Shown here: piece after piece, positions 3,744-54,690 of the stretch
How the letters are laid out: each line of letters starts with the position of its first letter
How positions within the stretch are numbered: the stretch's first letter is position 1
DNA from: Candidatus Baltobacteraceae bacterium
GTDB lineage: Bacteria > Vulcanimicrobiota > Vulcanimicrobiia > Vulcanimicrobiales > Vulcanimicrobiaceae
Reading direction: 5' to 3'
DNA: 64,000 bases
Assembly: GCA_036488875.1 (NCBI GenBank)
Contig: DASXGW010000008.1
Location: 124,001-188,000 of the forward strand
Made by a program: the position numbers and the translations under genes
Notes under the pieces: model-generated
The model's database searches: none
The model's input: only the letters and a program-made list of their open reading frames with translations
What the model was told of the DNA's origin: nothing

Positions 3744-3752
3744 TTATCCACA
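3744..3752 (+). promoter_or_regulatory. Isolated perfect DnaA box (TTATCCACA)
   Basis: An exact match to the strong DnaA box consensus, one base after the palindrome and 20 bases before the M48-protease start. The only other exact copy I noticed in the window is upstream of dnaA. It could let DnaA influence minC or protease transcription. One chance match in a window this size is possible. Confidence 0.45.
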
Positions 3753-38058: not shown

Positions 38059-39335
38059 TCGTGTAGGCTTTCGACGTCTTTGGTTACTTCGTTCGTCATA
38101 TCGTAGCCGCCCGGAGCGGCGTCGGGTCCGTTGAAGACGATGCTGAATCCCTGATCCTTGGCGATGCGGCTCGCTTCGTTTTGGATCTGATTGACGATCT
38201 CATTATAGAGGTCGTCGCGACGCTTTTGCAGAGCGTCGAGTTCTTTGGCGGCCGCGCCCGTGGCACCAACGTCGGCACCGTGCAGGGCGGCGAACTGACG
38301 ATCGAGATCGTTCTTGGTCGCGGTGTATTCGGCGATCGTCTGGGACGCGTCGGCACGAAACTCGTCGGTCAGCTGGTTGTGAATCTGCGCGATTTTCGCT
38401 TTGACGTCGGGCGGCAGGTTCGACGGAAGCGCCGGCGGTGCCAGCTGACGGATTTGCGCCCCGACCTCGTTGCGGCGTTCTTCGATCTTGCTCTGCGTCT
38501 GCGACTGAATCGTCGAGAGCGCGGCCTGCACCTGCGAGTTGGTCTGATCGTTGAGCTGCTTGCGATACGCGTCGAGCGCGGCTTGATCCGTCTTGCGCAT
38601 CGCGTTGGTTTGCGCGGTTTCCTTCGAATCGATGGCGGCGAGCTGATCCTGCAGCTGCTTGCGCGTCGCCGGTTCGAGCGCGAGGTTGTTCAGCCGCGTT
38701 TTGATCGCCAGGCGCTGCTGGGCGTCTTCTTGCGACAGCCGCATCGACAGATCCGTTTCCTGCTGCGCGAGCTGCTCGGCCTTCGCGCGAAGCTTCTGCT
38801 CCCCTTGCAGCTGCAGCTGGCGCACGATCGAGGCCGCCGCCGCGCGATTCTGCTCCACGACGCTCTTCTGGTACGCCTGAAAATCCTGGCCGGCAGCCTG
38901 CGCGGCTTGCTGCGCCTGCTGCGCCGACGTCGCCGACATCAGCTTCGACGCGAACTCACCCGCGCCCGGGACGTTGGCCGCCGTCAACGCTGCCGCGATC
39001 GCCTGCTGTTCGCGCTTGAGATACGTCTGCTGCTTCTGCTCGATGATCTTGCCGGCGCGGTCGTTGGCGGCTTGCATTTCGGCGTTGAGCTCTTTGGTCT
39101 GCGCCGCGATCTGCGAAGCCGACAACGGAACGTGCGGAGTCGAGGCCTTCAGCTGAATAGCCGAGATCGCGTCGTCGAGCTGCGAGAGCTGCGAATAGAG
39201 CGGGTGATGCTTGACCACGTCCGACACCCGCACGTACCCGATGCCGCGAATCGACGACGAGTGCACGTTGGGACCACATCCGCTCAAAAGAACGAACGCG
39301 AGCGCCATCAACGCCGCCGTGTTATTTGAGCTCAT
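38055..39335 (-). CDS. OmpH/Skp-like lipoprotein with extra-long coiled coil
   Basis: 426 residues from ATG 39335; upstream frame is rejected because it overlaps the neighbour. A lipobox (LLSGC) is near residue 20. An OmpH start GIGYVRVSDVVKHHPLYSQL is followed by about 300 residues of coiled coil rich in Gln, Ala and Lys, then DQGFSIVFNGPDAAPGGYDMTNEVTKDVESL. Ordinary Skp is about 160 residues; here the arms would be far longer. It may span much of the periplasm (inference). Confidence 0.8.
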   Translation of the reverse strand: MSSNNTAALMALAFVLLSGCGPNVHSSSIRGIGYVRVSDVVKHHPLYSQLSQLDDAISAIQLKASTPHVPLSASQIAAQTKELNAEMQAANDRAGKIIEQKQQTYLKREQQAIAAALTAANVPGAGEFASKLMSATSAQQAQQAAQAAGQDFQAYQKSVVEQNRAAAASIVRQLQLQGEQKLRAKAEQLAQQETDLSMRLSQEDAQQRLAIKTRLNNLALEPATRKQLQDQLAAIDSKETAQTNAMRKTDQAALDAYRKQLNDQTNSQVQAALSTIQSQTQSKIEERRNEVGAQIRQLAPPALPSNLPPDVKAKIAQIHNQLTDEFRADASQTIAEYTATKNDLDRQFAALHGADVGATGAAAKELDALQKRRDDLYNEIVNQIQNEASRIAKDQGFSIVFNGPDAAPGGYDMTNEVTKDVESLHE

Positions 39336-49765: not shown

Positions 49766-50602
49766 TTAACTGTGTTCCGTTCCATAAATCAAATCGTGCA
49801 GCTCGTCGCCGAGCACGCTGCGTACCGTCGCCGGAACGATATCTTCCGGCGGCAGCTTGCTGCGCAAGAGGACGTACGAACTGGCAACCGACCGCTCGCG
49901 TCCGTCACGGGAAAGGCGCTTGGCCGCCCGCGCTCTAGACAACGTTTCCCACCACGCCGAGAGTAAGCGCGCGCGAATCGCTTCGTAATCCTCTAGTGAT
50001 AACCCCGAGACGAGCGCCGCCGTTCCGGTATAACCCAACCACGGTGCTTCGAAGAGCAGCCGCGCCGCTTCGCCGGCCCGCTCGCGTGTCCGCGCGTCGG
50101 CGCAGACGGTGCACAGCGCTGGCTCGTCCGGCGCGACGAGTGCGCCGCAGCCTTTGCACTCTTTCCACCCCGCTGCCAGCTTTGCCCGCCGCGCGGCCGT
50201 GACGTCCTCGCGCAGCCGCGTCATCGCCTCTTCCAGCGTGGCCGATTCCGGCCGCGCAGCAACGCGCCGCGGCGAGCCGGCCGGCCGTTTCGAAGGGGTC
50301 GCGACCTTTACCGCTTCGGCGATTCGCCCCACGCGAAAGCGCAGCCGCTCCACGCCGGCGCTCGGTACCCGCGCGCGGATTGCCGTGAGGATCGTCTCGG
50401 AAAGGAGGCTTAGCTGATGGCTCCACGCGCTCGACCGCACCGTCACCAGAAGTGCGTCGCCGGCGAGCTTGGTGGGACGCGAGTTCTTGGCGACGTCCGC
50501 GCCGACGATCTCGGCCCAGCCCGCGCCCAGCAGGTCTACCGGGTCGCGCGGCGCGCCCGCCGTGGGCTGCCAGTTCTTCAGCGCCTCGGACAGCTTCAGC
50601 AT
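49766..50602 (-). CDS. DciA/DUF721-family protein with C-terminal zinc ribbon
   Basis: 278 residues from ATG 50602, overlapping the recF stop by seven bases. N-terminal DUF721/DciA domain (about 1-95: LLGAGWAEIVGADVAKNSRPTKLAGDALLVTVRSSAWSHQLSLL), which in many bacteria loads the DnaB helicase. After a linker, C149, C152, C164 and C167 form a C-x2-C-x11-C-x2-C zinc ribbon. About 110 more residues follow with a helical region. Typical DUF721 proteins are about 100-170 residues, so the tail is extra. Position between recF and gyrB is the classic DciA place. Confidence 0.82.
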   Translation of the reverse strand: MLKLSEALKNWQPTAGAPRDPVDLLGAGWAEIVGADVAKNSRPTKLAGDALLVTVRSSAWSHQLSLLSETILTAIRARVPSAGVERLRFRVGRIAEAVKVATPSKRPAGSPRRVAARPESATLEEAMTRLREDVTAARRAKLAAGWKECKGCGALVAPDEPALCTVCADARTRERAGEAARLLFEAPWLGYTGTAALVSGLSLEDYEAIRARLLSAWWETLSRARAAKRLSRDGRERSVASSYVLLRSKLPPEDIVPATVRSVLGDELHDLIYGTEHS

Positions 50603-51711: not shown

Positions 51712-52827
51712 CTACTGACGCAGCGGCATCAGCACGTAGAGCTGTTGGCCGGAATCGAGCGGCTCGAGCGGGCGGATTGCCGCGGGCGAAAGCGGTCCGA
51801 GAAACTCGATGGCGGTCTTGTCGCTCTTGACGTGGTTGAGAATCTCGACCAAGTAGCGCGCGTTGAACGCGATGGTCAAATCTTCGCCCGTCTGCTCGAC
51901 TTCGATCTCTTCGTAGGCGTTGCCCGAGATGTCGGAGCTCGCGGTGACGATCAGGGTCTGATTGGCGACGGAGAGCTTCACCATGCTGGCGCGGTCGCCG
52001 GCGACGAGCTCGGCGCGTTTGAGGCTGCCGATGAGCGCCGCGGTGTTGACCGTGACCGAGCGGTCGAACTTCGCGGGAATGACTTGCTGATAGTTGGGAT
52101 ACTGTCCGTCGACCAGACGCACCGTAATCGACACCGTGCCGGCGGTCAGCTGAAGCTGATTGCTCTGCGCGCCCAGGGCACTGACCGCGATCTGCTCGCC
52201 TCCGCCGAGATTCCGCGCGACTTCGGCCAACGCCCGCGATGGAATGATGTACCGTTCGCTGCCGGTGATGCCGTCGTCGAGCGTGGTCGTGAACTTCGCG
52301 AGACGGTAGCCGTCGGTGGCGACCATCGTCAGCGAGTCGCCTTCGATCTCGAGCAGCGTTCCCATGAGGACGGCGCCGCGCGCCTCTTCACTGGAGGCCG
52401 CGAAGATCGTGCCGTCGATGCCGTCGCGAAAGCGCTTTGCCGCGATCGTGAAGTGCGAGCCGCGCGTGGCCGCCGGCAGCGGCGGATACTCGTCGGCGGG
52501 CAGCGCGTGAAAGTCGTAGTTGCTGCGATCGCACTTGATGCTGGCACGCGTCGGCGTTCCGGTGAGCTCGAGCATCCCCGCCGGCAAGTTCCCCAGATAG
52601 CTCGAGAAGAGCTTGGCCGGTACCGTTACCGAACCCACCTCGGTGATCTCTGCCGGGAAGGCGTGTTCGAGGGTCAGCTCGAGGTCCGTCGCCCGCACCG
52701 CGATCTTTCCGTCGTCGGCCTGCAGCAGCACGTTGGACAGAATGGGCACCGTGGTGTGTTGGTTGACCACCTTGCTGGCGGCCCCCACTGCTGCGGAGAT
52801 GTCCTTCGTGTTACAGCTAAACTTCAT
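51712..52827 (-). CDS. dnaN: DNA polymerase III beta sliding clamp
   Basis: 371 residues, three-domain clamp. MKFSCNTKDISAAVGAASKVVNQHTTVPILSNVLLQA, RFRDGIDGTIFAASSEEARGAVLMGTLLEIEGDSLTMVATDGYRLA, and a C-terminal PLDSGQQLYVLMPLRQ, the typical clamp end (MP[LM]R). GGTGG lies four bases upstream of the ATG on its strand. Confidence 0.97.
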   Translation of the reverse strand: MKFSCNTKDISAAVGAASKVVNQHTTVPILSNVLLQADDGKIAVRATDLELTLEHAFPAEITEVGSVTVPAKLFSSYLGNLPAGMLELTGTPTRASIKCDRSNYDFHALPADEYPPLPAATRGSHFTIAAKRFRDGIDGTIFAASSEEARGAVLMGTLLEIEGDSLTMVATDGYRLAKFTTTLDDGITGSERYIIPSRALAEVARNLGGGEQIAVSALGAQSNQLQLTAGTVSITVRLVDGQYPNYQQVIPAKFDRSVTVNTAALIGSLKRAELVAGDRASMVKLSVANQTLIVTASSDISGNAYEEIEVEQTGEDLTIAFNARYLVEILNHVKSDKTAIEFLGPLSPAAIRPLEPLDSGQQLYVLMPLRQ

Positions 52828-52852
52828 TTTCCACCGTCGTCGGGCGTGCGAT

Positions 52853-53032
52853 TTTTCCTAGTAAGAATATACGTAAGGAGTCGTAATAGTAGTAGAGCGG
52901 TGTATTCTGCGAAGAAGTGCCCATTTGCTTGCTGCGGCGCGACTTTTCGCGTGGGATAACGTGTGGACGGTTATCCCGGGACCTCCACAGTTCCACGCCG
53001 GGTATCCGAGGGCCGGGGTTATCCCCACGGGC
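52853..53032. other. Candidate oriC part 1: AT-rich stretch plus DnaA-box-like sites in the dnaN-dnaA gap
   Basis: About 205 bases separate dnaN and dnaA. 52853-52907 is clearly AT-richer than the rest. It is followed by DnaA-box-like sites: GGGATAAC (52953-52960) and GTTATCCC (52970-52977) form a perfect inverted pair around nine bases, and TTATCCCCA (53019-53027) is one mismatch from TTATCCACA. The DnaA-trio-like run is listed separately. Which gap is the functional origin is not known. Confidence 0.55.
52884..52895 (+). promoter_or_regulatory. DnaA-trio-like repeat (four TAA/TAG triplets)
   Basis: 5'-TAATAGTAGTAG-3', four in-step triplets in the AT-rich part of the dnaN-dnaA gap. In known unwinding elements the trios read 3'-GAT-5' moving away from the DnaA boxes, so boxes should lie on the 3' side. 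The boxes here at 52951-53027 are indeed on that side, although 55 bases away. A poorer box-like GGTGTATTC follows the trios after a short GC patch (52899-52907). Confidence 0.5.
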
Positions 53033-54480: not shown

Positions 54481-54690
54481 GTCCTGCGGTTTCTATGCAC
54501 GACTTTATACACTTATCCACAGGTGCCGTGGAACGGTTTTACCGGGATTTTTCGAATCTATGAACCGCAAAAATCCGGGGGATTGACAAGCCCTAAAGCA
54601 GCGGCCCCATAGGCGTTTCTGAGAGGTTTCTGAGGGCCGTTCGCGACGCTTCTCCACAGGGTTGTCCACACATGTGGAAAGTCTGGCGCT
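54481..54690. other. Candidate oriC part 2: DnaA boxes upstream of dnaA
   Basis: The 380-base gap between dnaA and the small membrane-protein gene holds a perfect box TTATCCACA (54513-54521) and single-mismatch boxes TTATACACT (54505-54513), TTCTCCACA (54650-54658) and TTGTCCACA (54662-54670). A mildly AT-rich stretch (about 54536-54600) lies between them. The remaining 54691-54776 shows a short AGGCC-TTT-GGCCT hairpin and no gene. Confidence 0.6.
54504..54509 (-). promoter_or_regulatory. Candidate dnaA promoter -10 (TATAAA)
   Basis: TATAAA on the minus strand, with the perfect DnaA box just upstream (54513-54521) where it would overlap the -35 to -10 spacer. Predicted leader is about 100 bases. 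A clear -35 is not seen, so DnaA autoregulation is plausible but unproven. Confidence 0.35.

Follow-up and report, generated by a model that had tools for sequence, protein, structure and literature searches.

A predicted basal-unwinding-type replication origin with six conserved DnaA-trios in the dnaA-dnaN gap of Candidatus Eremiobacterota

The window, by which we mean the whole 64,000-nucleotide stretch of DNA that was analysed, carries on its minus strand, in this order, dnaA, an intergenic gap, dnaN, recF, the gene for DciA, and gyrB. The dnaA product is a full-length initiator, and the best matches of dnaN, at up to 95% identity, are from Candidatus Eremiobacterota (WPS-2) assemblies, on which basis we assign the window to this phylum. 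The features in and beside the dnaA-dnaN gap are the following.

51712-52827, minus strand: dnaN, from its Pfam DNA_pol3_beta domains
52828-53032, between the two minus-strand genes: dnaA-dnaN gap, 205 bp
52847-52896, no strand: predicted unwinding element (trios plus AT-rich tail), the least stable 50 bp of the gap by nearest-neighbour stability
52895-52878, minus strand: six DnaA-trios, CTA CTA CTA TTA CGA CTC, from in-register conservation across relatives
52896-52898, minus strand: GC-rich spacer GCN separating trio 1 from box 7, its spacing fixed across the class
52899-52907, minus strand: weak tandem DnaA box GAATACACC, at the position of box 7, with nnnTnCACC conserved in the class
52908-52916, minus strand: degenerate upstream DnaA box TTCTTCGCA, at the position of Bacillus subtilis box 6, with orthologues in nearly all relatives
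52951-52959, minus strand: upstream forward DnaA-box-like site TTATCCCAC, half of an inverted pair, with 3 mismatches in the window copy
52971-52979, plus strand: TTATCCCGG, which completes that inverted pair and is apparently confined to this genome
53019-53027, plus strand: conserved DnaA box TTATCCCCA in reverse orientation, at the end of the gap next to dnaA
53033-54397, minus strand: dnaA, the initiator, from Pfam and alignment to 8btg

The initial annotation had described four in-step triplets in an AT-rich patch of this gap. The triplets are present (TAATAGTAGTAG, 52884-52895), and a run of four in-step [CT]TA triplets is found nowhere else on either strand of the 346-kb contig. Likewise, the longer block CACCGCNYTACTACTRYTACG, allowing up to 3 mismatches, has a single occurrence in the 3.7-Mb genome. 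The run is real and far from a chance occurrence, although the array comprises six trios rather than four, judging from the in-register conservation of trios 1-6. On the bound (plus) strand the array reads 3'-GAT GAT GAT AAT GCT GAG-5'. Trios 1-4 (3'-GAT GAT GAT AAT-5') supply the run of at least three in-register 3'-NAN-5' trios expected of a basal unwinding system (BUS), and trio 5 (3'-GCT-5') is cytosine-centred. The duplex is also unstable at and after the trios, as a BUS should be: the 50-bp minimum at 52847-52896 is one of the three lowest in the 346-kb contig.

Alignment of the gaps of relatives places the array in a conserved block, about 70 bp before dnaN, that reads TTnTYCnCA - nnnTnCACC - GCn - six triplets - AT-rich tail on the dnaA-to-dnaN strand. 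In the window, the block is TTCTTCGCA GAATACACC GCT CTA CTA CTA TTA CGA CTC. Loss of the triplets in relatives had been named as an outcome that would refute an origin element here; instead, the tandem box-spacer-six-trio arrangement is kept in 88 members of the class and is recognisable in other families of the phylum, with trios 1-6 conserved in register and the pattern decaying at trio 7. Two outgroup families have plainer forms, one of them the textbook arrangement: TTTTCCACA GAATCCACA GCTC TTA CTA CTA CTA CTA in G005 and TTGTCCACA GTATCAACA GGGC CTA TTA CTA CGA CTA CTA in G134. At locus L008 two genes intervene between dnaA and the trio block, and the block is still 70 bp before dnaN; the intervening predicted genes (L008 3168-5991) are a Ser/Pro/Thr-rich lipoprotein-like ORF and a glycine-rich ORF. 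A strict count of (YTA)x3 is a misleading measure of this conservation, as it overlooks CTG and CGA trios, and we therefore anchored the gaps on their boxes. For the 94 non-redundant gaps the anchors were the box, CAC, the spacing, the first [CT]TA and downstream AT content. These criteria are neutral between T/G and A/C at the trio centres, apart from a slight preference for A and T that comes from the AT content.

The initial annotation had also read the long distance between the trios and the first good DnaA box as a variant architecture. That reading is ruled out by a conserved, degenerate tandem pair of boxes (52916-52899, minus strand) that adjoins the trios; the distance looked long because these proximal boxes are degenerate in the window. 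The upstream box, TTCTTCGCA, has 3 mismatches to TTATCCACA, and its orthologues are often nearer consensus (TTATCCGCG, TTCTCCACA, and TTTTCCACA in the outgroup G005). It is 12 bp from trio 1, so a DnaA box stands on the right side and strand within the 16 bp used to define a BUS, and inside the 10-13 bp peak of box-trio distances among predicted BUS elements (PMC8287927). The second box, GAATACACC, has 4 mismatches to TTATCCACA, abuts the upstream box and is 3 bp from trio 1. It provides the tandem, co-oriented second box with up to 4 mismatches, as GAATCCACA does in G005; the box-7 counterpart in the outgroup families is GAATCCACA or GTATCAACA. The spacing CAC + 4 nt + [CT]TA is invariable across the class, and an orthologue of the tandem pair is recognisable in about 90 relatives.

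Further DnaA-box-like sites lie, as had been proposed, on the side predicted by the polarity of the trios. In 60 of 104 gaps, against about 12 expected from shuffles, a forward box with up to 2 mismatches stands 40-190 bp before the trios; a reverse box with up to 1 mismatch is present at the dnaA end in 50 of 104 (1.3 expected). The perfect GGGATAAC/GTTATCCC inverted pair singled out earlier is indeed present, at 52953-52960 and 52970-52977, but it is not conserved as a pair. We rejected it as a functional unit because, reading through the relatives, only the GTTATCCC half recurs in place; the same reading did not find TTATCCCGG at the corresponding place in their gaps. Upstream of dnaA there is a perfect TTATCCACA (54513-54521) and two boxes 3 bp apart, TTCTCCACA and TTGTCCACA (54650-54658 and 54662-54670), a cluster that possibly represents the second cluster of a bipartite origin or serves dnaA autoregulation. 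The sole other perfect TTATCCACA in the window, at 3744-3752, is far from the origin. GC skew, proposed earlier as a check, is too weak to be decisive. By 20-kb bins, the eight to the left of contig 160 kb are negative and the next four positive, and later bins turn negative again. A clear switch at the locus is not confirmed, and the cumulative minimum of the contig, at window position 38112, is 15 kb from the gap.

To place the array among known systems, we compared it with the BUS of B. subtilis (incC, boxes 6/7 plus six trios). The two share the location between dnaA and dnaN, the polarity, the tandem co-oriented boxes, a short GC-rich spacer, six trios (5'-CTACTATTACTTCTACTA-3' in B. subtilis, PMC10201434), an AT-rich tail and the same DnaA contact residues. 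Unlike B. subtilis, the window has more degenerate boxes (3 and 4 mismatches) and a cytosine-centred trio 5, and in the sister order most trios are cytosine-centred. The order of elements also agrees with BUS predicted in other species, in which a box is followed by a spacer of about 10-13 bp and then by trios beginning 3'-GAT-5' (PMC8287927). That 2021 survey predicted a BUS in 85% of the origins of 2070 species, with A required at every trio centre and a tandem co-oriented second box in 57% of the predictions; its authors suspected that some trios lack a central A, without demonstrating it. When we emulated the published rule (A at each centre, and a better box with up to 2 mismatches to TTATCCACA, a species-specific box being allowed), 60 of 110 gaps were called in register. 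The window's own gap was not called because its box has 3 mismatches, and we therefore describe its array as a variant rather than as a called BUS member. The mismatch limit is a search threshold and not a mechanism, and the orthologous boxes of many relatives pass it.

The departure from the textbook motif that we regard as real, on the sequences compared, is cytosine at the trio centres, in trio 5 of the window and in most trios of the sister order. T or G on the top strand occupies all six centres in 82 of the 94 non-redundant gaps. With near-duplicates included, 97 of 110 gaps have six of six T/G centres in register, and shifted registers never exceed four of six. Tracing changes by parsimony on a DnaN tree of the 94 gaps, we count 60 changes at the centres of trios 2-6, of which 47.4 are T-G and 1.4 are T-C. 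Changes at trio position 1 are mostly C-T and those at position 3 mostly A-G, that is, ordinary transitions. In 47 disjoint tree pairs, 37 of the 46 differences at centres are T-G, as are 3 of the 106 at the flanks (Fisher p 2.6e-23), and control columns show 8.9% T-G. A T-G exchange on the top strand is an A-C exchange on the strand that DnaA should hold. In 22 of 94 gaps, no three consecutive A-centred trios are found within the six. The extreme is the sister order (G015-G028, L061-L065), where most trios beyond the first one or two are cytosine-centred, for example CTA TGA CGA AGA CGA CGA.

How DnaA could tolerate this exchange is suggested by work in B. subtilis. There, the trios read 3'-GAT-5', and Asn187 holds the amine of their conserved central adenine, as established by cryo-EM and mutants; a central C nearly equals A in vitro and beats G or T, which perform poorly, in vivo (PMC10721633). 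Those engineered A-to-C mutants are like our arrays in that cytosine can replace the central adenine; they are laboratory substitutions, whereas the changes here are natural, repeated and spread over several lineages. The pattern of substitution is the one predicted by the amine-contact model, and would correspond to the "deviant trio" suspected in the survey (PMC8287927). In the window's DnaA, aligned to 8btg, the matches to B. subtilis E183, N187, I190, N196, R202 and E228 are kept and I193 is Leu. The trio-contact set expected with a BUS (Asn187, Ile190, Ile193, Arg202, Glu228) is accordingly there, with one conservative change, Ile193 to Leu. E183, N187, R202 and E228 are invariant in every readable DnaA, including four from the cytosine-trio order. 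A search of the open literature on cytosine in trios and on the origins of Eremiobacterota, with preprints and most subscription journals outside its scope, yielded no account of natural trios centred on cytosine.

Based on these comparisons, we predict that the dnaA-dnaN gap of Candidatus Eremiobacterota holds a basal-unwinding-type origin with the trio run as its core, which upholds the proposal that an origin unwinding element with DnaA-trios of the predicted polarity lies beside dnaN. We consider it highly probable that the gap is the unwinding site of the chromosome origin and works like the B. subtilis system, its trio centres being read through an amine. The sequences themselves establish that the array is present, unique, in register and conserved, how its bases are substituted, and that the DnaA contact residues are kept; by analogy, we infer DnaA binding, melting, strand choice and amine reading in these species. 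DnaA would dock on the tandem degenerate boxes (52916-52899), aided by the distal boxes of the gap, and a DnaA-ATP oligomer would grow across the six trios on the plus strand of 52895-52878, taking hold of two bases in each and opening the AT-rich tail in the direction of dnaN. At each centre, the Asn187-equivalent residue would read the base through its exocyclic amine, so that A and C would be interchangeable and G and T avoided. The helicase would then probably be loaded with DciA, since the genome has no DnaD-type domain: a search for DnaD/DnaB_2 (PF07261) found none in the genome and did find the B. subtilis control. The DciA gene (PF05258) is at window 49766-50602, minus strand, between recF and gyrB.

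Seen from the top strand, these columns are keto (T/G) positions, and a protein could read them there, for instance one like DnaD, the helicase-loading protein that in B. subtilis recognises TnnT opposite the trios (PMC10201434). We think this improbable: PF07261 is absent from the genome, the B. subtilis control being positive, and a DciA gene is there instead, and arrays of the cytosine-trio order (CTA NGA CGA NGA) lose the TnnT spacing while their centres are still T or G. The position of the block, AT-rich and about 70 bp before dnaN, would also suit a dnaN promoter or an RNA element that merely contains triplets. Here the chances seem slim, for the gap has no sigma-70-like promoter or terminator and the window no Rfam match; promoters are not marked by a period of strictly three bases that runs for exactly six units, nor by an exchange of T and G confined to centres, and the order of tandem boxes and trios fits a known system.

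Mutation bias or shared ancestry, rather than selection, might also underlie the exchange at the centres, as the sequences are related and the genomes, being GC-rich, favour T to G or C. Such bias should raise T-C as well, yet T-C is nearly absent at centres; the flanks of the trios change by ordinary transitions, T-G keeps its low share in control columns, and the disjoint tree pairs agree, so that we give this account scarcely any weight. The reading of the centres by DnaA through their amine is the explanation that we carry forward.

Outside the phylum, we drew 30 loci each from the phyla of one Gemmatimonadota and one Chloroflexi record. The centres of trios 2-5 in Gemmatimonadota are T 70, G 18, A 2 and C 2 (23 anchored gaps, with automatic anchors, some doubtful), and in Chloroflexota the rule is unclean beyond trio 3 (ten anchored gaps, with the same proviso); many Chloroflexota loci are without dnaA beside dnaN. 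In three Chloroflexota loci (L208, L211, L212), A- and C-centred units alternate, as CTA CGA CTN CGT. These arrays are weaker evidence because their anchors are automatic. We nevertheless lean towards a general trio code of 3'-N(A/C)N-5' rather than 3'-NAN-5', in which the amine of the centre base is what is read. On this view, whole lineages with cytosine-rich arrays and an unchanged DnaA would include the second order of the class, some Gemmatimonadota and some Chloroflexota, and part of the 15% of origins in which trios went undetected may be of this type.

What we describe appears to be an origin element of an ordinary kind, from a phylum with almost no studied members, and its comparative anatomy puts the reading of trios by DnaA to a strong natural test. 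Our understanding of how DnaA chooses its melting site by sequence has so far rested on a single cryo-EM structure and on mutants engineered in B. subtilis. Here the same A-to-C swap has arisen many times in evolution, with G and T almost always avoided, and this supports the amine-contact rule beyond Bacillus. Cytosine-centred trios could account for part of the origins in which trios went unfound, and we suggest that programs for locating origins accept either A or C as the centre base, together with a lineage-specific box.
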